From: Haemophilus haemolyticus | GTDB lineage: Bacteria > Pseudomonadota > Gammaproteobacteria > Enterobacterales > Pasteurellaceae | Length of the DNA: 64,000 nt | NCBI RefSeq assembly: GCF_003352385.1 | Contig: NZ_CP031243.1 | Coordinates: forward strand, 1-64,000 | Reading direction: 5' to 3' | Shown here: in pieces, positions 19,430-47,516 of the stretch | Numbering within the stretch: position 1 is the first letter of the stretch | Layout of the letters: each line of letters starts with the position of its first letter | Position numbers and translations under genes: made by a program | Notes under the pieces: model-generated | Seen by the model: only the letters and a program-made list of their open reading frames with translations | The model's database searches: none | What the model was told of the DNA's origin: nothing

Positions 19430-19573
19430 AACACCCCCTTGTTGGTGAAGTGAAAAGCGACATCCTATCGCTCCGTTTTGAGTAGCTATTCTATCAGAAT
19501 ATCCTCGTTATTTTGTATTAAATTGCTGAATTAATAGAAGAGTAAACCTATCCCATTAAAAATTACAGTTTTT

Positions 19574-19891
19574 CTATGTTGATAATCTAAACAAATGGGT
19601 GGGCGGAGATGATAACAATGCGATTGATTCTATACCTTGTGCCAATAGTCCGCACCATATACGAGCCTTATCCCTAGCGAAAGCAAGTGGAATTGATGGA
19701 TAGTTTCCAAAAGATTTTTTAATGCGTTTTTTGGTTGTTGGGTGAGTGTAAATGAATCGCCATATTTTGGCCCCAGTTGGTTTAACCAATAAATACAGAT
19801 TATCCCTATCAGAAAATAGTTGCTCTTTATCGGTTGGTTTAATTCCATGAATATAAGAATCAGTGAATTTTTTTGAAAAGTCTCTAGCCAT
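19574..19891 (-). pseudogene. Truncated P4-type integrase fragment outside the island
   Basis: About the first 94 codons match the arm-binding domain of P4-type tyrosine recombinases (SDRDNLYLLVKPTGAKIWRF, then FGNYPSIPLAFARDKA). The reading then runs into about ten unrelated residues and a stop. The catalytic domain, with its R-H-R-Y residues, is absent. It lies between relA and the left att-like sequence, so it is probably the scar of an earlier integration at the same tRNA target. It resembles but is clearly different from the intact integrase at 27340. Confidence 0.8.
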
Positions 19892-20096
19892 TGTTCAAAC
19901 CCTAATAAATAAAAATTTACCGTTCTTCTGTTCCCTCGTTTTTGTTCCTTCATAAAGAGGGAACATTTAAGGGAACAATAAAAACGAACAATGACAAACA
20001 ATGACAAACAATAAAAGACGAAAACAACAATGAAGTTAATGATAAGATGCTGTTTTTATGATGTTTTTTGACAGAAAAGACGTTATTTGACAGGCC
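19892..20096. other. Non-coding stretch with short tandem repeats
   Basis: An AT-rich segment between the integrase remnant and the att-like sequence. It contains two to three tandem copies of an AACAATGACA unit near 19986-20010. No convincing gene or structure is seen. Confidence 0.5.
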
Positions 20097-20121
20097 AAAT
20101 GGTCCCCTTGCCGGACCTGAA
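20097..20121. repeat. Left attachment-site-like copy of the tRNA-Ile 3' end
   Basis: AAATGGTCCCC then TTGCCGGACCTGAAC resembles 28871-28897, which covers the 3' end of the tRNA-Ile gene, with a two-base difference in the C run and one substitution later. It is the expected direct-repeat scar of integration into the tRNA and sets the left end of the island at about 20.1 kb. Confidence 0.75.
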
Positions 20122-20403
20122 CTAATAATATAACCAATTGATTTTATTAAATGACTTATTTTTTATTTTACTTTTATATAACTAAACGTATAACTAAAAA
20201 ACAAAATCATCAAGCCATCAAGGAGAAAACAAGATTAAATATACCAGTATTGTATAGACACATTAATCAATAAAAAGGATTATTTCTATACTATAAAGAA
20301 CATTCTTTTGCAGCAGATAGAAAAAAATACTTGAAACGTAACTTTCAGATTAGCTTTTTATAGTTAAGTTTTGTACTAATTGATACTTTGTCATTTAGTT
20401 ATA
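20122..20403. repeat. Left-end non-coding region with TATAACTAA repeats
   Basis: Direct TATAACTAA copies lie at 20177-20185 and 20189-20197, and an inverted copy at 20395-20403. The same motif is found near the right end of the island (28550-28558 inverted, 28689-28697 inverted, 28722-28730 and 28734-28742 direct). They may be integrase arm-type sites. Confidence 0.6.
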
Positions 20404-20862
20404 TTATTTTTTTTCCGATTTATAAAATTTATGCTCTTTATCCAAATAAACAATATAAAAAACTTCACCACGTAAAAAACCAACTATCCTAGGTTTCTGT
20501 CCTCCAACATTTCTTAAAACTCCCCATTTATCGCTATCTTCCATACAACCTTTCAATGACGGAGGTATGCTAAATTCATTAACAGATTTTGGGGGAAAAT
20601 CATGATAGAGTTTTATTTTCTCATCACTAGACTGTAACTGTGTTATATCGTTAGATGTCACATGTTGTAATGTTTTTAACATATCCAATAATCTACCTTC
20701 ATCATCCCAATTTTCTAAACTCTGCGCAGGATAATCATCAATATTTTGGAAATATAAAAAACTAACACTAATATATTTAGGAGACTTATTAATTAATGAT
20801 TTAGGTATTCTATTTTCTATCCCTCGACCAGAGGATTTTAACTGACCCTTTCTCTTGGACAT
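20404..20862 (-). CDS. Unknown 152-residue protein paired with an AAA ATPase; candidate effector
   Basis: I do not recognise this family. The protein begins with a basic stretch (SKRKGQLKSSGRG). The middle is mixed alpha/beta (about 30-100). The C-terminal block holds VLRNVGGQKPRIVGFL then GEVFYIVYLDKEHKFY, a strand-turn-strand ending in D-x-x-H. That ending recalls the closing part of small single-domain toxins, but this is only a resemblance. It starts 3 bases after the AAA ATPase gene ends, so the two are almost certainly co-translated. It is AT-rich and lacks uptake signals. It is not an obvious RloB/TOPRIM partner. Confidence 0.6.
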   Translation of the reverse strand: MSKRKGQLKSSGRGIENRIPKSLINKSPKYISVSFLYFQNIDDYPAQSLENWDDEGRLLDMLKTLQHVTSNDITQLQSSDEKIKLYHDFPPKSVNEFSIPPSLKGCMEDSDKWGVLRNVGGQKPRIVGFLRGEVFYIVYLDKEHKFYKSEKK

Positions 20863-20865
20863 AAA

Positions 20866-22152
20866 TTACTCTACCATTAATTTGTCAACGTCATTAATTG
20901 AATCAAATAAAGGAATTGCATCAAATTCTCCTTGTAAATAATCCTGGCTATAAGACTCTTTAATGATATTTTTGTATTCAGCTAATGAATACAACTGACT
21001 ATCTTGCCCTATCAGGTCTTTATGAACAAACCAAATTTGATCTCGTCGAAATATACCTGTATCCATTAAATTAGTATCTTGTACATTTACTACTAGTTGT
21101 GCATTCTTACAATTTTTATGAAATATTTTAAAAATATGTTTTGAAAGCAATGTATGAAACTTAGAATCAAACTCATCAATAAACAATACATTCCCATGTT
21201 TTATAGAATCATACAACGGCCCAAGTAAGTGAAGTATTTTACGAGTACCTGATGATTCCAAAGATATAGGCATTTCTATAGATTTTTTGGAGTTACTAAG
21301 GTATTTTTTTATACCAACTCCCATACGACTTAATTGTATTGTTTTTTTAAATTCAATACCATCAGAATCAGTAAGGCTAATTTCTGGAGAAATTTCTTCT
21401 CTCTCCTTAATAACAATCCCTGAAATATTGAAGTCTTTTAATATTTTTAAAGCCCAAGTGTAAAACTCTTTATTCTCTTTAAGCAAATTAAATGTATATC
21501 CTTTAAAACTTTCATCATCAAGACCTGAAAGTATACGAATTTTGGAGAAAAACTTAATAACATTTGAACTGTGCTTCCCTTCAAAAACAGCCAAAACTGA
21601 AATAAAAGGTACTTTGGGTGCTGTTTTTTCCAATCTCCCTTTTCTATCATAATCTTTGTATAGTTTGACAAAGAGACTCGCCTCTTTAAAGCCACTCATG
21701 TTATATTCCACAGACTGCCCCTCACGAAAGAAAAGCATAGTTTCGCGATGTCTTGAGTAATACAGCCACTCCTCAAGTATTTCCCCATTATAGATAGATA
21801 TTCCGTAACGATATTTTATATTGTTTTCAATAAATATAACTTCAAACTCAGATGGCTCTTTTTTATTATTCTCATCTAGCAAAAAAGGCGTGACATCATT
21901 TAAGAGATTCTTATCCAAAGAGCTATATGACGACATAACTATTTTCTTAAATAGTCCGACAGCCTTCATTAAGTTAGTTTTACCGCTAGCATTAGCACCA
22001 TAGATAAGTACTGATTTGAGTAGTTTGTCATCCTGAGAAGTAATTACATTTCCAGATAAAATGTCATCTTTTTTGAGAGGAGATATTTCTAAAGATAAAT
22101 TTTGTGCGTCTTTAAAAGAAAACACATTCTTAAATGAGAAACTAACTAACAT
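20866..22152 (-). CDS. AAA15-type ATPase (COG1106-like), candidate phage-defence gene
   Basis: The start at 22152 (MLVSFSFKNVFSFKDAQ) is chosen over an in-frame start at 22236 because the family begins with this strand. The product is 428 residues. The Walker A is GANASGKT at about 52-59. The Walker B is NVLFIDEFDSKFH. A signature-like LESSGTRKI precedes it, as in SMC/Rad50-like AAA15 and AAA21 proteins such as RloA and AbiLi-type ATPases. It is coupled to the unknown gene at 20404-20862. Such ATPase-effector pairs are common in defence islands. The function here is inferred from family and context. Confidence 0.8.
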   Translation of the reverse strand: MLVSFSFKNVFSFKDAQNLSLEISPLKKDDILSGNVITSQDDKLLKSVLIYGANASGKTNLMKAVGLFKKIVMSSYSSLDKNLLNDVTPFLLDENNKKEPSEFEVIFIENNIKYRYGISIYNGEILEEWLYYSRHRETMLFFREGQSVEYNMSGFKEASLFVKLYKDYDRKGRLEKTAPKVPFISVLAVFEGKHSSNVIKFFSKIRILSGLDDESFKGYTFNLLKENKEFYTWALKILKDFNISGIVIKEREEISPEISLTDSDGIEFKKTIQLSRMGVGIKKYLSNSKKSIEMPISLESSGTRKILHLLGPLYDSIKHGNVLFIDEFDSKFHTLLSKHIFKIFHKNCKNAQLVVNVQDTNLMDTGIFRRDQIWFVHKDLIGQDSQLYSLAEYKNIIKESYSQDYLQGEFDAIPLFDSINDVDKLMVE

Positions 22153-22382
22153 AAAAAACACCTTAAACTTAAAAAACCCAAGAATTATACCATTTTTCTC
22201 TATAAGAAGAAGCTTTTTTAGAGGATTAAGTCTCATTTATTTAGAACAATGGTCAATTTTATAAATGTGACAAACTATAATTATCTCAAGAACCGTAATA
22301 AAGTCAGTATCGATGACTTTATGAGGGATAACCATTCACATCCGTACCTCAACTTGGTTTTAATAAGATACTTAATTTTTAG

Positions 22383-22634
22383 CTATTTTAAGTTAATCAA
22401 GCATTTCTCCCTTTCCATTTCTCTGTCTATACGAAATAACTTTCTCCACTCGCTTAAATAACGCTTTTCAAGGCGATTGCCCTTAATAATTCCTAATCTA
22501 CAATCAAATCTTTTTAGTATGTATGGGATAGTTGCCATTACAATCATCTCATCACTTTTCTATTCTTCTTCAAGCCATAACTTGAATTGCTCTTTAAGTG
22601 ATAAAGCATTATTTGCTTTGTTTACTCTTTTCAT
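22383..22634 (-). pseudogene. Small gene with an in-frame amber stop, or a short leader followed by a second frame
   Basis: A strong AGGAGG ribosome-binding sequence precedes an ATG at 22634. The frame reads MKRVNKANNALSLKEQFKL to a TAG at 22560-22562. It then continues open in the same frame (KSDEMIVMATIPYILKRF onward) to a stop at 22383-22385. Together this would be about 82 residues rich in Lys/Arg/Leu/Glu. I do not recognise the protein; a small island regulator is possible. One nonsense change in a real gene is the simplest reading, but a 24-codon peptide cannot be excluded. Confidence 0.4.
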
Positions 22635-23057
22635 AGTAAGCCTCCTGTTGGTGGATAACATAGAGAACTTTAACAATCGATATTTTTCTGTCCAGAAAAG
22701 GCTATTAATTCCTCGATCTAGATCGCAAAAATAAAATATTTTTGGACAAAAATGTTAATTTTGCGGTTATGAAAATTGAGTTAAGTGGGCGGTCTTGATA
22801 AATAATTACTCTAGCGATTTATACCCCCTATCCTTGCTCTATAAAACGCCTAGAAAACTGTAATAGTGATAAGAAAGAGTTTGATGGCTGGTATTCAAAG
22901 CTTTTTCTCCTAACTTTTACCCTCCCCTTTACTCAATTTTTAATAACGTAATTAAAAACGGAGAAAACCTTATATTCTTAATATTGACAATTTAATAAAA
23001 AAACTATACTAAGATAGTCATAAGAATACTTTACATCAAAAAATATGGAGTAAAAAA
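22635..23057. other. Non-coding region with likely promoter of the DUF3883-like gene
   Basis: No gene is seen in 420 bases. TTGACA at 22984-22989 and TATACT at 23005-23010 form a promoter-like pair with a short 15-base spacing ahead of the + strand gene. GGAG at 23047-23050 is its ribosome-binding sequence. Confidence 0.45.
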
Positions 23058-24071
23058 ATGGATAATATATTTGATCTTTTAACTAAATCTAAAGATACCG
23101 AAAAGGCATTTATCTTAGATTATGGGAAAAAGCAAGATGGAGAATATAAATATGAAAAAAATTTCACACATTATAAATGGAATAAAAAACGGTTTAATCA
23201 GCTATATGTAGGAGCATTTGTTCTTGGAAGAGTACCTAGTGGACAGAGCGAAGACAATAAATTTAGAATTGATACCGGAGGGATTATTACTCATATTTCG
23301 GAACCAGATAAGGAAGGATTCCTAGTTGCCACTATAGGAAATACTTTTAAAATTGACCCTCCAATCAAACAAGGTGATGATTTTATCGAAAATTTTGAAT
23401 GGCAAAATAAAAGTAAAAAACAAAATAATTGGATGCATTTTTGGAGTCAGTATGGAATGAACATCATTTCATTCTTAGATTTCAGTAGACTGATAAAGCA
23501 TTCAAACTGTATTCCTTTTAAGGATGATATGGTGTGGGAAGAATATATTAATCCTAGTGTTCTAAAAAAAATAGAAGATGAGTCTGGAGCTAATTTTCAT
23601 GTGATATCAGAAGAAACAGAAATATCACAAAAAAAGAAAGAAACAAAATACTCAGGACGCGCACAAAAGTGTGATTTTGAAAAGATACAAAAAATAAAAA
23701 AAGAGATTGGTGATCTTGGGGAAAGGATTGTTTTTAATCTTCTAACTCAAGAAGCCAATAAAAAAGGTTGGAAAAAACCAGAACATTCTTCTAAGGATGA
23801 AGGTGATGGATTAGGTTTTGACATTCGTTACTGGAAGGATGATAAGGAAGTACATGTTGAAGTTAAAACAACACTAAGTAACTCCCCAGATCACTTCGAA
23901 ATGACGCTTAATGAAATACGTGCCTCACACTATTATAATGAATATGAAGTCTATAGAGTGTATGACTTGGACGTAGACAAACAAGAATATAAGCTGAAGA
24001 TATATAAGGGACCTATAGATGAGAACAAATTTGAACTAGAACCTAAAACATACATTGTATATCAAAAATAG
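23058..24071 (+). CDS. Putative restriction-type nuclease with C-terminal DUF3883-like domain
   Basis: The 337-residue protein has two parts. The N-terminal region (about 1-150) has GAFVLGRVPSG and a GGIITHISE strand pattern. It could be a modified-base or small-molecule sensing domain, but I cannot name it. After a Lys-rich linker (about 190-215), the C-terminal half shows EIGDLGERIVFNLL, GDGLGFDIRYW and VHVEVKTT. This is the PD-(D/E)xK-like pattern of DUF3883 proteins found with restriction systems. It is the only + strand gene of the island, alone between the AAA unit and phage-like genes, and is AT-rich. No methyltransferase is adjacent, which would fit a modification-dependent nuclease. 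The role is inferred. Confidence 0.65.
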   Translation: MDNIFDLLTKSKDTEKAFILDYGKKQDGEYKYEKNFTHYKWNKKRFNQLYVGAFVLGRVPSGQSEDNKFRIDTGGIITHISEPDKEGFLVATIGNTFKIDPPIKQGDDFIENFEWQNKSKKQNNWMHFWSQYGMNIISFLDFSRLIKHSNCIPFKDDMVWEEYINPSVLKKIEDESGANFHVISEETEISQKKKETKYSGRAQKCDFEKIQKIKKEIGDLGERIVFNLLTQEANKKGWKKPEHSSKDEGDGLGFDIRYWKDDKEVHVEVKTTLSNSPDHFEMTLNEIRASHYYNEYEVYRVYDLDVDKQEYKLKIYKGPIDENKFELEPKTYIVYQK

Positions 24072-24482
24072 ATATAATCTGTTTTCGTTACTTTCGCAAT
24101 TGGTTTCGAAATTTCGCAATTTGTTTCGCAAATTTATCCCTATCAATTTATTTATTATACATTTATTTAAATTTGGTTTGCTCAGAATTATTCCAAGCTG
24201 AACGCAACATAAATTTAAATTTCCTCAAGTATGATTTGGGAACTAAGTTGGTATGATTTTGTAACGTCATCGTTTAAATATTGAGCTAAAAATACCATTT
24301 TTTCTTTTTGGTGTTATGAAATCATACTTATTTTAGGGGTGTACTTGGTATGATTTCGTAACGTGTTTATATATCTGCCATATACTATGAAAAAACATTG
24401 TTGTTTGTTGGTGGAAAAATCATTTTTAAAGTATCAAATATAGGGTAAAAAAGACTAATAAAAAATTTTGGTCGAAAACAAG
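24072..24482. repeat. Iteron-like repeat region between convergent genes
   Basis: A 410-base AT-rich region without a gene. It contains TTTCGCAATT-type repeats at about 24092-24135. It also has a GTATGATTT core at 24229-24237, 24250-24258 and 24348-24356, with an inverted copy (AAATCATAC) at about 24319-24327. Two of these extend into a 21-base near-identical repeat, TTGGTATGATTTYGTAACGTS (24248-24268 and 24345-24365). Repeated sites in a non-coding region suggest a replication origin or an operator array of the satellite element. Confidence 0.6.
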
Positions 24483-24893
24483 CTACTTCGCTAAACAATT
24501 ACGCCATTTATGAGAGGCTGTTTTTGTTGGTCGTAAGTCATGAATATTTACGCCATTTCTAATAACCTCATCTACTGGCTCAATCGTTACCGCATAATAA
24601 GACAATCTACCCTTTCCACCTTGTCGGCTTTTCTCTATCCAGCCTTTTTCTTCAAGCTGTTTTAATGTTTTGCTTAATAGCTGTCGGCTAATATACAGCT
24701 CTTTATCCGCCCTGTTATACGGTAATGCTAAATAGCCATTATTTGAGCCGTTATACTCTCCGTAAAGATGTAGAAAAACTTTTGTTTCATTTCCACTTAA
24801 ACTACGAAAATGAGGACTTCTTAAAACATCCTTGCCAAGCCCTACAAAAGGGCTTGTATCTCTTCTCGCTTTATTTCTTGCGTGGTTTACCAT
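24483..24893 (-). CDS. Winged-helix-like island protein (136 residues)
   Basis: I do not recognise a named family. The protein has a basic N-terminus (NHARNKARRDTSPF). A winged-helix pattern follows at about 25-105: SLSGNETKVFLHLY, then LYISRQLLSKTLKQLEEKGW as recognition helix and wing. A short variable tail ends it. Such proteins occur in phages and satellites as replication or transcription factors. Its stop is next to the iteron-like region. It has no uptake signal and is AT-rich. Confidence 0.6.
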   Translation of the reverse strand: MVNHARNKARRDTSPFVGLGKDVLRSPHFRSLSGNETKVFLHLYGEYNGSNNGYLALPYNRADKELYISRQLLSKTLKQLEEKGWIEKSRQGGKGRLSYYAVTIEPVDEVIRNGVNIHDLRPTKTASHKWRNCLAK

Positions 24894-24960
24894 ATAATTA
24901 ACCCGTCAATTTTAATTTAATCTTGCCTATGCCCCGTGATGAAAGCATAGGCATTTTTTT

Positions 24961-25284
24961 CTAGTTAAATCGTTGTAAAATGTTTTGCGTTGCCAATTCA
25001 TTGAAAGCTACTTCTCCCCTTAATTGAGCTTTCATATTGGCGAACTTAATCAAACGCTCTGCGGTTAATCGGTCAGGAATGCTATAACGGTAGTATTTGT
25101 TGTTACCGTCTGCTGTTTTCTCCCATTCCCGATGAAGTTTAATGTCGAGCTTATTCTCAAGTGAAGAGATATAGTTTCTTCCGCTAGTGAAGTTAAGTTG
25201 AAATACGCCCTCTCGTTCTGAAAAGCTACCACCATTTCTAAACGTGAAATTAATTAGTCTTTCTTCGTTCGTTAATTTAATCAT
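24961..25284 (-). CDS. Hypothetical island protein, probable helix-turn-helix fold (107 residues)
   Basis: A small basic protein with NEERLINFTFRNGGSFSERE at the N-terminus. The central ISSLENKLDIKLHREW reads like a DNA-binding helix followed by a wing (DGNNKYYRYSIPDRLT). No family name can be given. It lies 14 bases after the terminase-like gene, in the same direction, and is followed by a 67-base gap before the next gene. It probably belongs to the satellite packaging or regulation cluster. Confidence 0.55.
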   Translation of the reverse strand: MIKLTNEERLINFTFRNGGSFSEREGVFQLNFTSGRNYISSLENKLDIKLHREWEKTADGNNKYYRYSIPDRLTAERLIKFANMKAQLRGEVAFNELATQNILQRFN

Positions 25285-25298
25285 TGTTTTATCCTCTA

Positions 25299-25718
25299 TT
25301 AATTGAACTTGATTTCATCTGGCTCATCTGAAAAATGAACGTTAATCACTCTTGGGAGCTTGCTTAAATCTTCTTGAGAAGTAACTGCCTGTCTATCAAA
25401 GCCTAAGATTTTGGCTTGCCCCATTACTGATGATACTGCTACGCTAAAATTGCCTTTCTTCATTGACTCTTGGTAAATATCCTCCAGTTTGTCTAAAATA
25501 TCGCTAATTCTTATGTCATGAGCCTTGCGGTGCTTGGCTTGTAACATATCTATTCTTGCCCTAATCTTGCTGTCCTCCATTAAATCAAACGCTCTACGGT
25601 TTATTGTTTCGGGTTTCATTCCGTCTGTGTCATAGGCTCTGCGATAAGCCTCTGAGGCCTTACCAGTTTCAACATGGTATAAACAGAAATTTTCTTATTT
25701 TATTGTTAATTCACTCAT
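25299..25718 (-). pseudogene. Terminase small subunit-like gene with nonsense codon 8
   Basis: An ATG at 25718 with GGAGAG upstream opens MSELTIK, then a TAA at 25695-25697. The frame then stays open as FCLYHVETGKASEAYRRAYD and MKPETINRRAFDL through a coiled C-terminal region to 25299. The block xxETGxASEAYRRAY is the start of phage terminase small subunits. The residue at the stop is Gln in similar proteins as I recall them, so CAA to TAA is likely. Translation could restart at the ATG at 25619, losing the DNA-binding N-terminus. In satellites TerS redirects packaging, so loss would disable mobilisation. Confidence 0.7.
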
Positions 25719-25722
25719 TTCT

Positions 25723-25890
25723 TTACTCTCCTAAGTTCACCAGCCCTATAATTTGCTGTTTTAATTCTTCAATATCCATTAATACTAAAGTTGCTTTCTC
25801 ACTAATAAATCCTAATGCCTCCTCTAATTGGTAATGTGTTGCCTGTTTATCTAATATTTCATCAGCTATCTGATAAATACTTTCAATCAT
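25723..25890 (-). CDS. Small island ORF, 55 residues, upstream part possibly frameshifted
   Basis: The frame starting at an ATG at 25890 encodes MIESIYQIADEILDKQATHY and continues to LVNLGE, ending 4 bases before the terS-like start. The frame stays open without a start codon further upstream (QVNTENRNTATLGGIL). A good start with an AGGAGGG sequence at about 25960 opens MMSNTNSS in another frame and stops. A one-base frameshift near 25935 could therefore have broken a protein of about 78 residues. The composition (acidic, helical) fits a small phage protein. Confidence 0.5.
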   Translation of the reverse strand: MIESIYQIADEILDKQATHYQLEEALGFISEKATLVLMDIEELKQQIIGLVNLGE

Positions 25891-25992
25891 CGTCAAAATA
25901 CCGCCTAGCGTTGCTGTATTTCGATTTTCTGTATTAACTTGAATTTGTATTGCTCATCATTAAAACCCTCCTGTGATCGTTATATTGAATAT

Positions 25993-26187
25993 TTAGCCAT
26001 TGATGTACTCTTGAATGTCAGCTAAACGCCAACGTGTAGAACGACCGCATTTTTTAGGTCGTGGGAAAATTCTGTCTTTAACGTGTTTATAGATAGTGGT
26101 GGTGGAAAAACCTGTGATATTTTTCACATCATCAAGGTTAAGAAGTTGTCTTGTTGAGATTTGTTGAGTAGTGTTTAATGTTTCCAT
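25993..26187 (-). CDS. alpA: AlpA-family transcriptional regulator
   Basis: A small DNA-binding protein of the MerR-like excisionase/AlpA group, which in satellites and P4-like elements controls excision or late genes. The 64-residue protein shows NLDDVKNITGFSTTTIYKHV (helix-turn-helix) and RIFPRPKKCGRSTRWRLADI, the AlpA signature. It is transcribed toward the terminase-like cluster. The AGGAGA-like sequence upstream supports the start. Confidence 0.88.
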   Translation of the reverse strand: METLNTTQQISTRQLLNLDDVKNITGFSTTTIYKHVKDRIFPRPKKCGRSTRWRLADIQEYING

Positions 26188-26309
26188 TTTTGCGTTCTCC
26201 TGTGTTGAGTTTTGTTTTTGAACGCTATCTATTGTGTTGAAACATTAAAAATATGTCATCGCAACGAAAAAATACATCTGATTTTAAAGGTTTTTTTATG
26301 AAAATTAAA

Positions 26310-26329
26310 AACGCCCTAAAATGGGCGTT
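26310..26329 (-). terminator. Terminator after the 306-residue island gene
   Basis: AACGCCC and GGGCGTT flank a six-base loop. On the minus strand the stem is followed by TTTAATTTT. It sits just past the stop of the gene at 26336-27256. Confidence 0.75.
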
Positions 26330-26335
26330 AGTAGA

Positions 26336-27256
26336 TTATTGTTTTAGTCTTTTATTGGCATTGGAAAAATATTCTTCGATCGTTCGTTGTTTTAAGCCTT
26401 TTGTTGAAATATTTTCATTTTGGCGGTGCTCTAAAATCTTATCTATGATTTCACCTTGTGTCCATTTCTTGGCTCTACTACCTACTGTCTGTAAAACTTC
26501 GCCTAATAGATACATAGCATTATCAAGATCTAATTTGCTACTGGATTCTACATCACTATCTAAGCTAGCTAAAAATTCGTTTAAATGGTCTGTTTGAATC
26601 ACAAAAAATGAACCATCAATTTCCCCTATTCCTGCGCAAGGATAATGAAATGTTTTTGTGGAAATTGGGCGATTCTTTATTTTCTCAAAAATATCTGCTT
26701 TTTCTTTGTCTGAGAGCTCTTCAGGTATAGACTCTATAAAATCTCTTTTTATTTCTTTTTGTAATTCTTTATACCCGTCTGGATATAGAGTACTTTGACG
26801 TTCTATTACAACACCATCTTTATTTTTTACATAAAAGCCTGATAAATTGAATACATCTACCTGAGGCAAATTGCTTTCTTTTCTTAGCTCCCATTCTAAA
26901 TCTATTTTTTCATTTCCAATTAGTTTTAATTCCCATACTCCAGCCTTAAACTCTATAATATCAGGAGTAACTTTTATAAACTCGTTATCGTTACACTTTT
27001 CGTATTCGTATAATTTAAAAGGGTTTCCATCTAAGCCATTAATTATTTTAAATTTGTTTCCTTTATCAAGATCTGTAGTTATATCACATATTTTCCCATA
27101 CCAATTATGAGGAAAGTTTACAGACATCCTGAGTTGTTTATCTACTGCTAGTTGTAATATATCGGCATTAGTAACTTCTTCGCCTACTTCAATACTTAAT
27201 CGACGAGCAGCCTCATCAATAGTTAACCATTTTTTTAATTTATAAAATTTTTTCAT
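26336..27256 (-). CDS. Conserved island protein of unknown function (306 residues)
   Basis: I recognise the style rather than a named family. The N-terminus has WLTIDEAARRLSIEVGEEVT, a short helix-turn-helix-like segment. The middle is all-beta-like. The C-terminal 60 residues (WTQGEIIDKILEH through GLKQRTIEEYFSNANKRLKQ) look like a second DNA-binding helix bundle. Proteins of this layout lie next to integrase genes in Pasteurellaceae islands. It may be a regulator or a replication accessory protein. It is downstream of int on the same strand, with an 83-base gap, and ends at a terminator. Confidence 0.6.
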   Translation of the reverse strand: MKKFYKLKKWLTIDEAARRLSIEVGEEVTNADILQLAVDKQLRMSVNFPHNWYGKICDITTDLDKGNKFKIINGLDGNPFKLYEYEKCNDNEFIKVTPDIIEFKAGVWELKLIGNEKIDLEWELRKESNLPQVDVFNLSGFYVKNKDGVVIERQSTLYPDGYKELQKEIKRDFIESIPEELSDKEKADIFEKIKNRPISTKTFHYPCAGIGEIDGSFFVIQTDHLNEFLASLDSDVESSSKLDLDNAMYLLGEVLQTVGSRAKKWTQGEIIDKILEHRQNENISTKGLKQRTIEEYFSNANKRLKQ

Positions 27257-27339
27257 CTGTTTAATCTCAGTTTAATCTAAAGTTTTCTGAAGTAGTAAAA
27301 ACCTACCACACTTTACTTAATATAAAGTTTTGCTGAATT

Positions 27340-28566
27340 TTAAATGTCCGCCACCATTGAGCAACTTTCTACATAATCGCCCCATTGTTGCATCACTGGC
27401 ACTCGTTGTTCTAAATAATCAGAACGGTTATAAGCTTTGCGTGTTTGGTCTGCGATAATATGTGATAAGCAAGCCTCTACCACATCATAATTTACTAACT
27501 GCTCATTAAGATAAGTACTCGCTATTGCTCTTAATCCATGAGCGGTAAGTTTCCCAGTATATTTCCCACCAGCAAGTAACTTTATAGCTCTATTTGCTGT
27601 TTGTGGATTAATTGCTTGATTAGCTTTTATTTCGCTTTGAAATACATATCGCTCACCTCCTGTGATGCTTTTCATTTTATCTAATAAGCGCATTGCTTGC
27701 GTTGATAAAGGAACAATATGACCACGTCTCCCACCTTTCATCTTATCTGCTGGAATGGACCACTGTTTTTTATCAAAATCAATTTCAGACCATTCAGCAC
27801 TGACTGATTCTTTAGGGCGCACCATTGTTAAAAGTTGCCATTTAATTAATAACTTCACTACTAAAGCACTATTACTTTCTCGTAGGTCTGTAAGAAATTC
27901 GGTTAGCTCTTCAGGTCTAATAGTCGGGTTATTCTCTATGGTAGGTGTACTAAAACTAGCTGATACGTTTACGCACTTATTAAACTCGATTAATCCACTA
28001 TTTACAGCGAAATTTAAAATCTCATTAGTTAATCTGATTGTACGTTGTAATGTATCTCCTACTCCACGCTCTTTTAACGGCTGAAGAGTTTCAATCAATA
28101 GCTTAGGTGTGATAGCTGATATAGGCATTTCGCCCAATTTAGGGAATAAATGATTTTCAAGGCGAGCCCAATTCTTCTCCATTGTCTTAGGTAAAACTTC
28201 AGGGGCTTTCTTTTCTCGCCATTTACTCGCTACATTACGAAAAGTATTTGTTAAACGCTCTTGCTCATCTTCGCTCTGTTGCTTGCGATGTTGTTGAGGA
28301 TCGATATCTTGAGCAAGTAAGGTTAAATATTCATCTCTCGTCTTACGTGCTTGTGATAAAGAAATATTTGGATATTTACCAACACTTAGTAACACTCTCT
28401 TTCTAGGATTACTAAAAGGCTGATAATAATTAAATCGCCATAAACGTGAACCACTAGGCTTAATCAATAAATAAAGCCCTTGACCATCTGACAGGGTGTA
28501 TTCTTTTTCTTTGGGCTTTGCTCGTTCTATTTCTGTATTAGTGAGCGGTTTAGTTATACGTGCCAT
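27340..28566 (-). CDS. int: P4-type tyrosine recombinase (integrase)
   Basis: Site-specific recombinase that integrates and excises the island. The 408-residue protein has a DUF4102-like arm-binding domain (YTLSDGQGLYLLIKPSGSRL), a core-binding domain, and a catalytic domain. Arg is in LTMVRPKESV, His-x-x-Arg in LTAHGLRAIAST, and the Tyr in AYNRSDYLEQR or close by. It is complete. The tRNA-Ile gene lies about 300 bases upstream, the normal arrangement for this family. An inverted TATAACTAA copy overlaps its first codons, so IntDNA binding might repress its own gene. Confidence 0.92.
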   Translation of the reverse strand: MARITKPLTNTEIERAKPKEKEYTLSDGQGLYLLIKPSGSRLWRFNYYQPFSNPRKRVLLSVGKYPNISLSQARKTRDEYLTLLAQDIDPQQHRKQQSEDEQERLTNTFRNVASKWREKKAPEVLPKTMEKNWARLENHLFPKLGEMPISAITPKLLIETLQPLKERGVGDTLQRTIRLTNEILNFAVNSGLIEFNKCVNVSASFSTPTIENNPTIRPEELTEFLTDLRESNSALVVKLLIKWQLLTMVRPKESVSAEWSEIDFDKKQWSIPADKMKGGRRGHIVPLSTQAMRLLDKMKSITGGERYVFQSEIKANQAINPQTANRAIKLLAGGKYTGKLTAHGLRAIASTYLNEQLVNYDVVEACLSHIIADQTRKAYNRSDYLEQRVPVMQQWGDYVESCSMVADI

Positions 28567-28873
28567 GTTTTCTTGCTCAATTTAGCCTATTTATTGCTCG
28601 TCACTCGTTCAAAGTCCGCTAATTTAAGACATCTAGTTATACATAAAGAATTTTATTCGAGCCTTTTGTAGATTGATTTTAGCGTATTTTAGTTATACTG
28701 ATTTTGAGCTATATCGTTACGTATAACTAAGCATATAACTAAAAAATGTGGTTGTAAACGTAAAAATTGATAAGAAAACGTAAGAAGAAAAAATATAAAA
28801 ACTCAATAAATCTAGCATTTATCGGAATTTATGAAAGAAAACGAAAGAAGAAAAAAGATGAGAAAATTTGAAA
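28567..28873. other. Integrase upstream region at the right end of the island
   Basis: Non-coding and AT-rich. It carries TATAACTAA copies (28722-28730, 28734-28742, inverted 28689-28697). It also has two related purine-rich repeats of the form GAAAACGWAAGAAGAAAAAA at about 28775 and 28837. It probably contains the int promoter and arm sites. Confidence 0.55.
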
Positions 28874-28950
28874 TGGTCCCCCCTGCCGGACTTGAACCAG
28901 CGACCAAGCGATTATGAGTCGCCTGCTCTAACCGACTGAGCTAAGGGGGG
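28874..28950 (-). tRNA. tRNA-Ile (anticodon CAU, ile2 type)
   Basis: On the minus strand the 77 bases fold as a tRNA: acceptor CCCCCCT with AGGGGGG, D-arm GCTCAG, and a T-arm around GGTTCAAGTCC. The encoded CCA lies at 28874-28876. The anticodon loop CTCATAA gives CAU (28914-28916). The body resembles E. coli tRNA-Ile2 (GCGACTCATAATCGCTTGG) rather than elongator Met, so the C34 is expected to be lysidine-modified and read AUA. It is the integration target of the adjacent island. Confidence 0.92.
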
Positions 28951-29099
28951 GAAAAAGTGCGGTGATTATAGAGAAATAATCACTTGAAGTCTATAAAAGA
29001 AGAGATGATTGATGAAAAATCAACCATCCATTTTTATCACTATTAAAAGAAGTGCTCTAAATGTCACTCAATATTTAATTATGGAAAGTATTCAAATTA

Positions 29100-41482: not shown

Positions 41483-42303
41483 AACAAATATGGAAATTGA
41501 CTTCCAATTGACACTCAAGACTTCCAACGGCTTATTCAAGAAAAAATGCCGTCTTCTCAAGAGAAAATCTACTTTCTGATTGATGAAATTCAGTTTGTGG
41601 AAGGTTGGCAAAAAAACGTCAATGCGCTTCGCGTGAGTTTTAACACCGATATTGTGATCACGGGTTCCAATGCCAACTTGCTTTCCGGCGATCTGGCGAC
41701 GCTGTTAAGTAGTCGCTATGTAGAAATCAAAATTTATCCGCTTTCTTTTAAAGAATTTTTACGTTCCAAAAATGTGGATACCCAGTCAAGATTGGTGGAT
41801 AAACTCTATTCGGAATACGAAAAATATGGCGGTTTCCCCAGCGTTGGGCTGATGAGCCTTTAAAAGAAACGATTTTATCAGGTATTTTTGATTCCATCGC
41901 GCTGAATGACATAGCGCATAGAGCTGGCGTGAAAGATACCCATATTCTTAAACGTGATTCTTTTTTGTAGGATAACGGTTTAAGACGACACGCTATTGGT
42001 AAAAAAGGCGAGAATTATGCCAATCGCTTAGAAAATATCGTGTTTATTGAATTGCTAAGACGAGGTTATACCGTAGATGTCGGCAAACTTGACAGCAAAG
42101 AAATTGATTTTATCGCCCGAAAAGCTGATGAAATTCTATATGTGCAAGTCGCCTTTGAAATCCCTGAAAATACCCAAGAAACAGATAATCTTTTGCATAT
42201 TAAAGATAACTATAAAAAGATCTTAATTACGGGGAAATATTACGAAAAAACGGAGATTGATGGGATTGAAGTGGTTTATGTGGTGGATTGGTTGCTGCAG
42301 TAA
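41483..42303 (+). pseudogene. Decayed AAA/DUF4143 ATPase gene
   Basis: The pieces align to one ATPase with the AAA_14/DUF4143 layout. DTQDFQRLIQ and IYFLIDEIQFVEGWQK (Walker B) come first, then TGSNANLLSGDLATLLSSRYVEI. A frame change near 41850 leads into EPLKETILSGIFDSIALNDI. A stop at about 41968 and a deletion follow. The frame then resumes with IGKKGENYANRLEN and DVGKLDSKEIDFIARK to the usual C-terminal end. No start or Walker A is left. It is a clear remnant with several lesions. Confidence 0.85.
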
Positions 42304-42662
42304 ATCTAAAAATATTGAAAATTTTCACCGCACTTTTTTGTATTTAACACTTATGCTGGCGCGCGTTTCCTAACGCGAGCCCTAGAAAGTAAATAAAGTG
42401 CGGTGAGTTTTTGAGGTGTTTTTTCGTGAAATTAGGTACACGCTAGGAAGCGTGCGCCAACAGATAGGTACAAACAAAGCAAGATAGCGCCAGCGTCCAC
42501 GCTGGTGCTACTTAATGTAATCATTGCGAATTTTACTCATAGTCTGTTGACAGAACTAATATTCAAAATTCTTTGGATTTTCTGACCGCACTTTTAGATG
42601 GGAGGCACAAGCGAGGATGCTTGCGCCATCATCCTGGCTTGTTTAATATGGTAACTATTATC
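42304..42662. repeat. Intergenic region with four REP-like palindromes
   Basis: No gene seen. Four imperfect palindromes share a core of the form GGCGCaaGCNNNNNNGCtTGCGCC: 42355-42382, 42435-42461, 42486-42510 and 42603-42628. Two uptake signals lie between them. The arrangement resembles REP/BIME elements. Confidence 0.7.
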
Positions 42663-43370
42663 CTATTTATTATTTATTCGGTTTCCTAAATTTCCACCAT
42701 TGTTCTCTGCATAATCTAGTAGTCCTTCCTTATTATTTATTTTTTTACTATGTATATTTTGATGAGTGCCAGGATTAACAATAGCTATATTTTTAGGGTC
42801 TAATACTTTTCTTGGAGCGTCTACTTTTCTTTCTATATGATGAGCATGTGGATATCTTGATAAAGGTTCACCTGTACATTCATCATTTGTTATATTATTC
42901 TCTTTTATAACGTTTTCCTTAAATTTTTTAAAATTTTTTCTATTTTTTGACTCTACTAATTCTCTTTCTTTTTCTATTTCTGGGTTATCTCTTAGTACGA
43001 CAAGACATTTTTCTGTATCTCTAAGTCTCTCTTTTTCTAAAGTATCTCTAGGTTCTTCAATCCTTTTTGCAACCTCTTTTTGTATTGCTGGAACAGATAC
43101 TAATTTGTTATTACCATTTTCTCTTTTTTCATCATTATTTAACTCATTATAGAATTTATTTACTCCAGCCTTATCGGTTACTAATAAATGTGGCAAGGCT
43201 GTTTTATCAATAAATGTTTCTCCTGTATTAGGATCTGCATATCCATTTTTCTTAATTATTTTCCTTGTTTTATCTCCCTCTTTAGTTATATGAGGAGATG
43301 CCTCAGGGAAATTTAATGTCATATCATTAGAATTAATTAAAGCTACTTCTTTATCCTTACTATTACACAT
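42663..43370 (-). CDS. HNH-motif nuclease, second gene of an AT-rich pair
   Basis: The 235-residue protein has a Lys/Glu-rich helical N-terminus (about 90-160). A C-terminal HNH-type motif follows: ECTGEPLSRYPHAHHIERK with His177 and His178, then NIAIVNPGTHQNIHS with Asn199 and His203/His207. The first Cys of the zinc site is at about 165. I cannot name a family. Its start overlaps the stop of the J-domain-like gene by 8 bases, so translation is coupled. The gene is much more AT-rich than metH beside it, and no uptake signal lies within it. A defence or toxin nuclease is likely but not shown. Confidence 0.7.
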   Translation of the reverse strand: MCNSKDKEVALINSNDMTLNFPEASPHITKEGDKTRKIIKKNGYADPNTGETFIDKTALPHLLVTDKAGVNKFYNELNNDEKRENGNNKLVSVPAIQKEVAKRIEEPRDTLEKERLRDTEKCLVVLRDNPEIEKERELVESKNRKNFKKFKENVIKENNITNDECTGEPLSRYPHAHHIERKVDAPRKVLDPKNIAIVNPGTHQNIHSKKINNKEGLLDYAENNGGNLGNRINNK

Positions 43371-43779
43371 CAGTCATATTCTCATATAGTTTATTTAGTT
43401 CTATAAGTGCATTATCAGAGCCACCTTTATCAGAGTGTATAATTTGAGCTATTTTATTTCTCCACTTTTTAGCTAGCTCTTTATTTAAATATAATTCATC
43501 GTCAGCATTTAAGGCTTTCATTCTTGCCTCTCCTTCCATTTTAGTTAGTATAAAAATATATTCTTTTTGTTTAGATACAAATACATTATCTGACCATGGT
43601 AGTAGATTTTCTTTAAAGAACATAATTGTATCTAAAATATCTTTATAAGTTGTGGCACTTATTTCCATATTTGGAATTATACTGTTTATATAACTACGTA
43701 TGTTTTCTATGGTTCCGATTTTTTCCAAATCTTCAATTGAAGAAACTTTCTTAAGTTCATTTATATTTATGTTATTCAT
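43363..43779 (-). CDS. J-domain-like protein with altered HPD motif (HSD), partner of the HNH nuclease
   Basis: The 138-residue protein has a helical, weakly characterised N-terminal half. Residues about 101-137 match the core of a J-domain: LAKKWRNKIAQIIHSDKGG, then DNALIELNKLYENM. The usual His-Pro-Asp of DnaJ proteins is His115-Ser116-Asp117, so normal Hsp70 stimulation may be lost. It is the first gene of a two-gene unit with the HNH protein (8-base overlap). It has an AT-rich composition unlike neighbours. The link between J-like domain and nuclease is new to me. Confidence 0.7.
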   Translation of the reverse strand: MNNININELKKVSSIEDLEKIGTIENIRSYINSIIPNMEISATTYKDILDTIMFFKENLLPWSDNVFVSKQKEYIFILTKMEGEARMKALNADDELYLNKELAKKWRNKIAQIIHSDKGGSDNALIELNKLYENMTDV

Positions 43780-43826
43780 ATTAACTACTTATCCTATGAG
43801 TTATTAAAAATTAATTACAATAAACC

Positions 43827-46800
43827 CTACTTCATCGCCACACCCAACCATTTCATCATCTCTCTCTCATCCCAACTTTTACGTTTAGCATAATCTTGAG
43901 CTTGGTCTTCATCAATGCGACCTAAGGTGAAATAGTTACTTGCCGGGTGGGTGAAGTACCAGCCGCAGACGGAAGCTGCCGGCCACATGGCGTAGCTTTC
44001 GGTGAGTTTCATACCGATGCGTTGTTCTACTTCTAATAAATCCCAAATCAAGGCTTTTTCCGTATGTTCTGGGCAGCTTGGATAACCCGGCGCAGGGCGA
44101 ATGCCGACATAGTTTTCGTTGATTAAACCTTGATTGTCGAATTCCTCTTGCGTGTAGCCCCAAATGCGGGTGCGAAGCTCAAAGTGCAGGTATTCTGCCA
44201 TGGCTTCGGCGAGGCGGTCGCCCACGGCTTGTAGCAAGATGGCGTTGTAGTCATCGCCTGCGGCTTTGTAGCCTTCCACCAAATCCATTTCTTCAATACC
44301 GGCGCACACGGCGAACATGCCGAACCAGTCTTTTTTACCGCTTTCGCGATCGGCAATAAAGTCACTTAAGCAGAAGTTAAATGGGCTTTTGCTGTTTTTG
44401 CCGCGTTCCGTTTGTTGGCGTAAGCCGTAAGCCGTGCCAATGGTTTGTGTGCGTTCTTCATCGGAGAATAGCACCACATCATCGCCCACGCGTTCTGCAG
44501 GGAAAATGCCTAAAATACCGCTTGGGTTGAGTTTGTGATTTTGCTCTAATTCATCTAAAACCACTTGTGCATCATTCCACACTTTGCGTGCTTCTTCGCC
44601 ACCTTCTGGATAATCAAAGGCATCAGGATAGCCGCCCATCAAGCCCCAAATACGGAAGAATGGCGACCAGTCGATGAATTTGCGCAGCTCGGCAATTGGC
44701 ACATTTTTAAATTCCACAATGCCCGTTTGTTTTGGTGTTGGCGGCACATAATCCGCCCATTCGCCACTAAAGCCGTCGAAACGGTTGGCGCGGGCTTCTT
44801 CAATGCTGAGTTGTTTACGCAACGGTTTGCGGTTGGCAAAGGATTGTTGGATTTTTTCGTAATCTTTCTTAAACTGTTCCCATAATGCTGCACGCCCTTC
44901 CGGGTTCATCAACGTGGCACACACCGTTACCGCACGGGAGGCGTTTGAGGTATAGAACACACCATGTTGCTTGTATTTTGGATAAAGTTTAATCGCAGTA
45001 TGTTCTTTGGAGGTCGTCGCGCCACCAATCAACACAGGCAAGTCCAAACCTAAACGTGTCATTTCACCGAGGAAGTATTCCATTTCGTCTAAAGATGGCG
45101 TAATCAAACCACTCAATCCGATAATATCCGCTTTTTCATCAATGGCGGTTTGAATGATTTTGTCTGCCGGCACCATCACGCCTAAATCGATCACTTCAAA
45201 GTTATTACATTGCAACACCACGCTCACGATATTTTTGCCGATGTCATGCACATCGCCTTTCACGGTGGCGATCACCACTTTACCGTTGCTTGAGCCTTTT
45301 TGTTTGGTCGCGTTAATAAACGGCTCTAAATATGCCACGGATTGTTTCATTACGCGTGCGGATTTCACCACTTGCGGCAGGAACATTTTACCGTCGCCGA
45401 ACAAATCGCCCACCACGTCCATGCCTGCCATGAGTGGACCTTCGATTACTTCTAACGGCGTTGGTAATTTTTGGCGGGCTTCTTCGGTGTCTTCGATGAT
45501 ATGCGTGGTAATCCCTTTCACCAGCGCGTGTTTTAAACGTTCTTCCACTGGCCAAGTACGCCATTCTGCGACAGAATCGACCGCACTTTCATCGTTGCCT
45601 TGGTTACGATATTTTTCTGCAATATCGAGTAATTTTTCGGTGGCATCAGGGCTGCGGTTTAATACCGCATCTTCCACAATGCCACGCAATTCAGGATCGA
45701 GATCGTCATAAATCGCAAGTTGCCCCGCATTCACAATCCCCATATCCATGCCTTGTTTGATGGCGTGATAGAGGAAGACGGCGTGAATGGCTTCACGCAT
45801 CACGTTGTTACCACGAAATGAGAAAGACACATTCGACACCCCGCCTGAGATTTTCGCATGCGGTAGTGCACGTTTAATACGACCGGTGGCGTTAATGAAA
45901 TCCACGCCGTAGTTGTTGTGTTCTTCAATCCCGGTGCCGATGGCAAAAATATTCGGGTCGAAAATAATGTCTTCTGGCGGGAAGCCTACTTGGTTGACTA
46001 AGATGTTATAGGCACGGGTACAGATTTCCACTTTACGCTCTTCTGTATCAGCCTGCCCCACTTCATCAAATGCCATCACCACAACGGCCGCACCGTATTT
46101 ACGTACCAATTTAGCCTGATGAATAAATTTTTCCTCGCCCTCTTTTAAGGAAATAGAGTTCACAATCGGTTTACCTTGCACCGATTGCAATCCTGCCTCA
46201 ATCACTTCCCATTTAGACGAGTCAATCATCACCGGCACTTTAGCTGCATCCGGTTCTGTTGCCATAATGTTGAGGAAACGGGTCATGCATTTTTTGCCAT
46301 CGAGCAAGGCTTCGTCCATATTGACGTCAATGACTTGCGCGCCGTTTTCTACTTGGTCGATAGCAATTTCAATGGCTTCGGCAAATTTGTCTTCTTTAAT
46401 TAAGCGTTTAAATTTTGCAGAACCCGTCACGTTATTACGCTCGCCCACGTTCACGAACAGGCTTTCATCATCAATATTGAGCGGTTCTAAACCCGATAAA
46501 CGCATGGCGGTTTTGATTTGTGGCAATTTGCGTGGTGGGATGTTTTCTACCGCATCGGCAAAGGCTTTAATGTGTTCTGGCGTGGTACCACAACAGCCGC
46601 CGATAATGTTCACAAAACCACTTTCTGCCCATTCTTTTAAGTGAGCAGCCATCTCTTCTGCCCCTAAATCATAACCACCAAAAGCATTTGGCAAGCCCGC
46701 GTTCGGATGCACAGAAACATAGGTTTCACTGATTTTTGAAAGCTGTTCCACATATTGGCGTAATTCTTTTGGACCTAACGCGCAGTTCAAACCGAAAGTG

Positions 46801-47516
46801 AGCGGTTTTGCGTGACGGAGGGAGTTATAGAAAGCCTCAGTGGTTTGCCCAGAAAGAGTTCGCCCTGAAGCATCAGTAATGGTGCCGGAAATCATGATTG
46901 GCAATTCTACGCCTAATTCTTCGAATACGCTTTCAATAGCAAAAACTGCCGCTTTAGCGTTAAGCGTGTCGAAAATGGTTTCGATCATAATTAAATCCGC
47001 CCCACCTTCGATTAAGCCTTTTGTTGCTTGGGCATAAGCCTCCACCAACTTCATAAAAGTCACATTGCGGAAACCGGGATCATTTACATCGGGTGATATG
47101 GAAGCCGTACGGTTTGTTGGCCCTAACACGCCCGCGACAAAGCGAGGTTTTTCTGGCGTGCTATATTTATCTGCTGCCAAACGAGCTAATTTTGCACCAA
47201 CAAAATTGAGTTCATAAGCGATAGATTGCAAATCGTAATCCGCTTGAGCAATCGTAGTTGAACTAAAAGTATTGGTTTCAATAATATCTGCACCCGCTGC
47301 CAAATATTTCTCATGAATAGCGGAAATTAGCAGCGGTTGAGTCAATGTCAGTAAATCATTATTACCGCGTAAATCGACCGCACTTTCCTTAAACTTCTCG
47401 CCTCTAAAATCAGCTTCTGTCAGTTTATATTTTTGGATCATCGTCCCCATCGCACCGTCTAAAATGAGAATGCGATTTTCTAGAGCTTGTTTAAGTTGAG
47501 CGGTTTTATTCACCAT
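43827..47516 (-). CDS. metH: Cobalamin-dependent methionine synthase
   Basis: Transfers a methyl group from methyltetrahydrofolate to homocysteine through B12. The 1229-residue protein has all four modules of E. coli MetH. The homocysteine domain (about 1-325) has LNCALGP and [11 protein letters not shown] zinc cysteines. The pterin domain (350-620) includes NVTGSAKF. The B12 domain (650-890) includes the base-off motif [11 protein letters not shown]. The reactivation domain (900-1229) ends with the usual tail. No frameshift or early stop is seen. Function depends on B12 import, which the btu-like cluster could supply. Confidence 0.96.

Follow-up and report, generated by a model that had tools for sequence, protein, structure and literature searches.

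Why should a gene for a J-domain-like protein and a gene for an HNH nuclease-like protein overlap, and what could their products do together? The two genes lie at 42663..43779 of the window, as we call the whole stretch of 64,000 nucleotides analysed here (Haemophilus haemolyticus, contig NZ_CP031243.1). A first-pass annotation, made from the letters alone, had described them as a tightly coupled, AT-rich unit and had proposed a defence or toxin unit in which the J-like protein controls or targets the nuclease, or else a fragment from a locus encoding a contact-dependent toxin. Both open reading frames (ORFs) are intact in the ORF list and its translations and have 8 bp in common, in line with the proposed two-gene unit. 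Altogether, our analysis indicates that the pair is probably a horizontally moving two-gene anti-phage module, whereby we infer the defence role from its location.

Conservation of the gene pair

The two genes form a conserved, coupled unit that moves alone. A J-like gene was found directly upstream of the HNH gene in 10 of the 11 HNH loci found, in several bacterial groups and across phyla, which rules out a chance juxtaposition of the two genes. Four of the ten paired loci had been found through the J-like protein, so that the less biased figures are those for each search route: 5 of 6 loci were paired when the search started from the HNH protein (L002, L003, L004, L010, L011 and L012), and 3 of 3 in genome surveys that started from the J-like protein (G554, G798 and G1101). 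The pairing that had been proposed from the window is consequently conserved in other genomes.

When 72,556 plasmid records were searched by tblastn with the HNH protein, three matched, from K. pneumoniae, K. oxytoca and Cupriavidus. On the K. pneumoniae plasmid a J-like relative precedes the HNH gene with an 8-bp overlap as in the window, and on that of K. oxytoca its upstream neighbour is a J-like ORF lacking annotation, with an 11-bp overlap. The J profile finds no J gene adjoining the Cupriavidus HNH gene (L003), nor anywhere on that plasmid. The J-like query matched four plasmid records: the two Klebsiella plasmids, an Acetoanaerobium plasmid in which the HNH gene overlaps the J-like gene by 11 bp, and one Fusobacterium record of the plasmid set with a J-like match and no HNH gene. 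The scan of species genomes returned Alcanivorax and Vibrio owensii, both paired with 11-bp overlaps, and IMG/VR contributed one contig with the pair, again with an 11-bp overlap. Overall, the overlap measures 8 bp in the window and on the K. pneumoniae plasmid and 11 bp in five other pairs. As a separate observation, the partnerless Cupriavidus HNH gene follows a gene for a RES-domain NAD+ phosphorylase and carries a long PE-repeat tail (L003 5034-6681).

With the J profile (A9), 3 of 394 order genomes and 2 of 398 phylum genomes gave a match, the window's own genome among them each time. In each of the three new genomes obtained in this way (G554, G798 and G1101) an HNH gene adjoins the J gene. 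Searching 388 order genomes with the HNH profile A14 gave three matches, and these were the genomes that the J profile had matched in the order sample, with the two genes adjacent in each. In 369 class genomes the HNH profile A3 matched none besides the window's own. Two of 140 genomes matched in the family sample, the own genome and G008, the latter with a weak match of 54 residues and a stop inside (E 8.2e-4), which was not counted. No relatives were found by the single-protein scan of viral contigs or by the A6 scan, the A10 and A11 scans returned only a contig already in the set, and the HNH protein had no matches when compared with phages. Two further candidates for J-like relatives (L014 and L015) were not counted either, being longer, different proteins with about 41 residues in common with the J profile.

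Protein distances of the J-like and the HNH proteins correlate with r = 0.87 (10 pairs; 0 of 10000 permutations as high), a value as expected under co-inheritance and no proof of contact between the proteins. In six comparisons among the K. oxytoca, Alcanivorax and Vibrio copies dN was 0.12-0.28; dS could be computed for one of them only, where it was 1.9. With open frames in all 10 pairs, and dN low against a saturated dS in these three copies, the J-like gene is unlikely to be decaying. The closest relative of the window pair is that of G1101, with 41% identity for the J-like and 40% for the HNH protein. The G798 locus shows an additional feature (L026 1958-2353): between the J-like and the HNH gene lies a third gene, which overlaps both neighbours by 8 bp. 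Its product of 131 aa is a paralogue of the HNH protein's N-terminal part and lacks the HNH motif. This short paralogue may act as a heteromer partner or regulator.

The variable slot beside metH

In the window's genus, the sequence that follows metH on its 3' side forms a slot whose content varies from strain to strain. Of 10 genus genomes, own included, 9 matched the metH 3' end. In the six sister genomes available in full for this region (L042-L047), homology to the window ends at the metH stop codon and returns beyond the pair, at 42630-42632 in five of the six and at 42459 in L045. Comparing the content of the locus between strains, as had been proposed with the first-pass annotation, revealed a different module in each of these six slots, with a GC content of about 27-29%.

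Several of these modules could be identified with the defence models of PADLOC, namely Kiwa (KwaA 2.1e-49, KwaB 1.4e-85), retron II-A (3.1e-58, 1.2e-114), AbiP2 (8.6e-193) and the candidate system PDC-M45 (5.3e-37, 3.2e-64). A seventh sister slot, cut by a contig end, contains the candidate PDC-S49 (2.3e-76). In an eighth (L049) the match to metH was partial and the neighbouring genes are different. No PADLOC match was obtained for the 449-aa gene of this slot, nor for the two genes each of the L045 and L047 slots; the occupants of these three are candidate new defence systems. Thus, 5 of 8 sister slots hold known or candidate defence systems in place of the J-like/HNH pair. This slot, together with the cassette-like mobility of the pair described below, supports the earlier idea of a defence unit.

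Defence-type genes were also detected near copies of the pair elsewhere: AbiH in G798 (Pfam 7.5e-46), PDC-S49 in G554 (4.9e-27), and PDC-S15 with a RTasHel/GajB-type helicase on the K. pneumoniae plasmid. PADLOC was run here on hand-picked neighbours of L002, L003, L028 and L029 only, without a random-locus baseline, and the neighbours of L004, L007, L010, L011 and L012 were left out. A NACHT-type gene of L003 matched weakly (E 0.002-0.003), and L029:14393-14944 and L002:8606-9187 gave no match.

Mobility of the pair

In Alcanivorax the pair lies between two attC-like hairpins. The upstream one has 15 outer-arm pairs, a score reached by 5 of 300 shuffles, and the downstream one has 20 (0 of 300); another attC-like element was seen by eye farther upstream. 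In Vibrio the pair is enclosed by two copies of a 103-bp repeat, 87% identical, which is similar to the Vibrio cassette repeat; the hairpin test gave no support in this case, 41 and 90 of 300 shuffles being as good. In both hosts the pair looks like a single integron cassette, judging from its sequence surroundings. If these are indeed cassettes, each holds exactly these two genes, and the pair would be a self-sufficient unit. In G1101, a genome of 97% completeness and 9% contamination, the pair comes immediately after a divergent integrase-like gene and has an attC-like hairpin at its end (17 pairs, 1 of 300 shuffles).

It is important to add that a hairpin score alone is no proof of attC, because similar hairpins adjoin pairs without cassette context: a relaxed scan found them with 17 (L002), 19 (L003) and 15 (L029) outer pairs, and beside the window pair with 12, in a hairpin that extends into metH, and with 21, in flanking sequence common to sister genomes. 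A stricter attC scan gave 0 elements, its criteria being too strict. The attC calls consequently rest on core sites, position and cassette context, assessed by eye. Other copies were located near a transposase (K. oxytoca), a tyrosine-integrase-like gene (G554), IS66-like genes (G798) and a recombinase-like gene (L012), the last three named from translations.

The HNH protein

The C-terminal HNH-type motif that had been noticed in the second protein is present as H177 H178 ... N199 ... H203 ... H207. H177, H178, N199 and H203 are kept in all ten paired copies and H207 in nine. Profile A8 has eight PDB matches up to E 1, every one of them colicin E7 DNase (E 0.14-0.55), and the window protein matches Col-Pyo_DNase with E 0.088, at 13.4 bits missing the curated cut-off of 27. 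Going by this motif, the second protein would be an HNH DNase that depends on a metal and has an active site of the colicin E7/E9 type.

The 11 HNH homologues are free-standing proteins of 227-277 aa with the HNH motif in the C-terminal part, and translocation and receptor-binding domains, or any other delivery domains, are absent from all of them. None of them is a C-terminal scrap of a larger toxin, and the suggestion of a contact-dependent toxin fragment finds no support. An orphan contact-dependent toxin was likewise rejected, there being no long homologues among the 11. Only the window's HNH protein is clearly basic, while 9 of 10 are neutral to acidic.

The J-like protein

The first-pass annotation had described a degenerate J domain with HSD in place of HPD at residues 115-117. 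HSD is indeed found there, and the HPD slot varies among the ten pairs: HPD in three, of which G1101 and the L012 contig are two, HSD in four, and RED, GSS and KAS in one each. Loss of HPD is recurrent among the paired copies, and the three HSD copies open to measurement (K. oxytoca, Alcanivorax and Vibrio) show low dN. HPD is required for stimulation of DnaK. Since HPD is kept in only three pairs while the HNH residues are nearly all kept, DnaK stimulation is not the common function, and going by these alignments it cannot be the general job of the J-like protein.

Several comparisons address the fold. The best PDB sequence matches of profile A9 are T-antigen J domains (E 0.033 and 0.048), aligned via LLG, helix II, HPDKGG and the last helix; further matches, from E 0.087, are unrelated, save another T antigen at 0.21. 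Pfam DnaJ (PF00226) weakly matches two of the ten members of the A9 alignment (best E 0.00027), so that a J-domain hit does exist in the family; the gathering score was missed, with 18.5 bits for the Acetoanaerobium member against a cut-off of 27.8. The window protein itself gave no DnaJ match at E up to 10, nor in a search within its own genome. With hhalign against three host J domains, LG and HPD were in register at E 0.0032 and a probability of only 10%, compared to E 0.44 for an HNH control. From an alignment of five sequences, AlphaFold modelled the window protein with pLDDT 81 and pTM 0.66. VIA-align of this model over residues ~67-138 placed J-domain entries at ranks 1, 4, 10 and 12, and also at 2 (Rbj) and 20 (Tim16); Z values were low (best 5.0; 1 of 247 chains at >=5) and the list was mixed with unrelated helical proteins. 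Each of these lines is weak and all of them agree, pointing tentatively to a J fold. Additionally, the protein matches the uncharacterised phage family phrog_17986 (E 1.8e-16).

Lone short J-like proteins were observed in Fusobacterium phage Funu1 (L008 5046-5282) and on an IMG/VR contig (L013 4259-4492), in both cases without HPD and with no HNH relative on the record.

Possible mechanism and rival explanations

In the anti-phage module that we favour, the HNH protein would be the effector, cutting phage DNA or, as in abortive infection, the cell's own DNA. The J-like protein would use its J-domain fold as a docking surface for the nuclease, keep it silent or aim it, and report infection. DNase activity, binding between the two proteins and sensing by the J-like protein are all presumed in this scheme, as is control of the nuclease. 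A more specific version, which we hold to be rather doubtful, is that the J-like protein is a decoy or guard that copies the face of host DnaJ seized by phage proteins in the course of infection and has mostly shed its coupling to DnaK, so that phage binding would release or aim a colicin-type DNase. If this decoy reading is true, the lone Fusobacterium phage-type J-like proteins could be phage-borne blockers of such modules, that is, possible anti-defence decoys.

The main rival is a toxin-antitoxin (addiction) module, with a J-like antitoxin and an HNH DNase toxin, which would owe its persistence to the stability it gives cassettes, plasmids or islands and not to any effect on phages. Such a module would fit the gene order, with the regulator in front and the frames overlapping in most pairs. 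It would also fit the settings of the copies, which include plasmids, cassette-like units and the vicinity of integrase- or transposase-type genes, and no sensor domain was recognised in the pair. On the other hand, the slot of the window holds phage-defence systems in five of the eight sister genomes, and the pattern of an acidic antitoxin and a basic toxin is not seen, most of the HNH proteins being neutral to acidic. Many toxin-antitoxin modules also act against phages, and the two readings overlap; we consider an addiction module somewhat unlikely. That the J-like protein is instead a genuine co-chaperone, recruiting DnaK so that the nuclease or its target complex is folded or taken apart, while copies without HPD borrow another J protein or decay, appears quite improbable. 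In its favour, three pairs keep HPD, including the window's closest relative G1101. Against it, seven have replaced HPD with the frames still open, and the measurable HSD copies show low dN.

The likeness of the HNH core to colicin E7 DNase and the sub-threshold Col-Pyo_DNase match would also suit an orphan toxin/immunity cassette, contact-dependent or colicin-type, with the J-like protein providing immunity. The homologues are free-standing and lack delivery domains, however, the J-like gene comes first, most HNH proteins are not basic, and no large toxin gene was present among the listed genes and ORFs examined next to the pairs, which makes this reading very unlikely. HNH proteins are common in mobile elements and several pairs lie in mobile contexts, as would be expected of a homing or recombination nuclease, or another housekeeping function of the element, with no role in conflict. 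Against this, the pair is cargo of differing elements (cassettes, plasmids and integrase-linked islands), and no element gene is common to the loci read; we give such a function hardly any credence.

Features of the locus

Table 1. Features at and around the gene pair (positions in the window)
Feature	Position	Strand	Description
J-domain-like protein	43363..43779	-	138 aa; helical N-terminal region ~1-60, degenerate J domain ~67-138, HSD 115-117
HNH nuclease-like protein	42663..43370	-	235 aa; conserved N-terminal/middle region with EPRD motif; C-terminal colicin-DNase-type HH...N...H...H
Reading-frame overlap of J-like and HNH genes	43363..43370	-	8 bp; probable translational coupling
Strain-specific stretch, metH stop codon to sequence common to sister genomes	42633..43827	.	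Different modules in six sister genomes
metH	43827-47516		Flanks pair on J-like gene side
Broken ATPase gene	41546-42303		Flanks pair on HNH gene side

The pair is AT-rich as first described, with a GC content of 26% in the J-like and 29% in the HNH gene against 35-51% in 500-base windows away from it. Its position between metH and a decayed ATPase gene was likewise confirmed: the ATPase is broken into 105-aa and 87-aa pieces in the window, intact as a 400-aa ORF in 4 of 6 sister slots (L042, L044, L045 and L046) and a 180-aa piece in L047, while in L043 the region lay outside the range read. The pair had also been called free of uptake signals. No copy of AAGTGCGGT occurs within 42593-45580, so the statement holds literally, but with 54 copies in 64 kb, about one per 1.2 kb, and a 3' part of metH that is signal-free too, the absence is uninformative.

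Promoter and terminator scans around the pair stayed at chance level in the window. Pfam and NCBIfam gave only sub-cut-off matches for both window proteins, and PADLOC-DB 2023 matched 0 families at E up to 1. Elsewhere in the window, a stretch of 10.4 kb (18554-28954) without AAGTGCGGT is possibly acquired DNA.

Comparison with known systems

With the DNase domains of colicins E7 and E9 the HNH proteins share the HH ... N ... H x3 H arrangement. They differ by the weak match of profile A8 (E 0.14), the absence of receptor and translocation domains, their mostly non-basic character and a partner gene that comes first. Septu is a two-component nuclease defence composed of the ATPase PtuA and the HNH protein PtuB. 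Septu-like systems resemble the pair in being small mobile operons with an HNH protein as likely effector and a partner as likely regulator. In our case, however, this partner is a putative J-fold protein and not an ATPase, and no PADLOC model matches either protein at E 1. J domains without HPD (Tim16/Pam16) and the J domains of polyomavirus T antigens are the nearest counterparts of the J-like protein, which differs from them in being bacterial, linked to a nuclease and extended by an N-terminal helical region.

No description of a J-domain/HNH system was found in the literature searched, which was mostly without subscription papers, and a prior description is possible; the portions available of PMC12169576, PMC3710099 and PMC7159879 describe no such system. 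The domain types are known, and their combination, in which a putative J fold that has mostly lost HPD accompanies a mobile nuclease gene, appears undescribed. Its probable place is among the compact nuclease-based kinds of defence. The pair would extend the candidate anti-phage systems by a compact, mobile module that lacks annotation. Its presumed type of regulator (a J fold, mostly HPD-less) was not met with in that literature as the partner of a nuclease effector. It would also tie chaperone biology to phage sensing within about 1.1 kb, small enough for direct testing, and the occupants of the metH-side slot that remain without a PADLOC match offer further candidates.

A link between chaperones and phage sensing has a precedent in bNACHT25, which needs host DnaJ for phage sensing and is not rescued by the J-domain mutants H33Q and D35N of DnaJ (PMC12169576). 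Both systems would connect the J-protein/DnaK chaperone system to the sensing of phages. The difference is that bNACHT25 uses the DnaJ of the host, whereas the window module encodes a J-like protein of its own, with relatives that are mostly without HPD.
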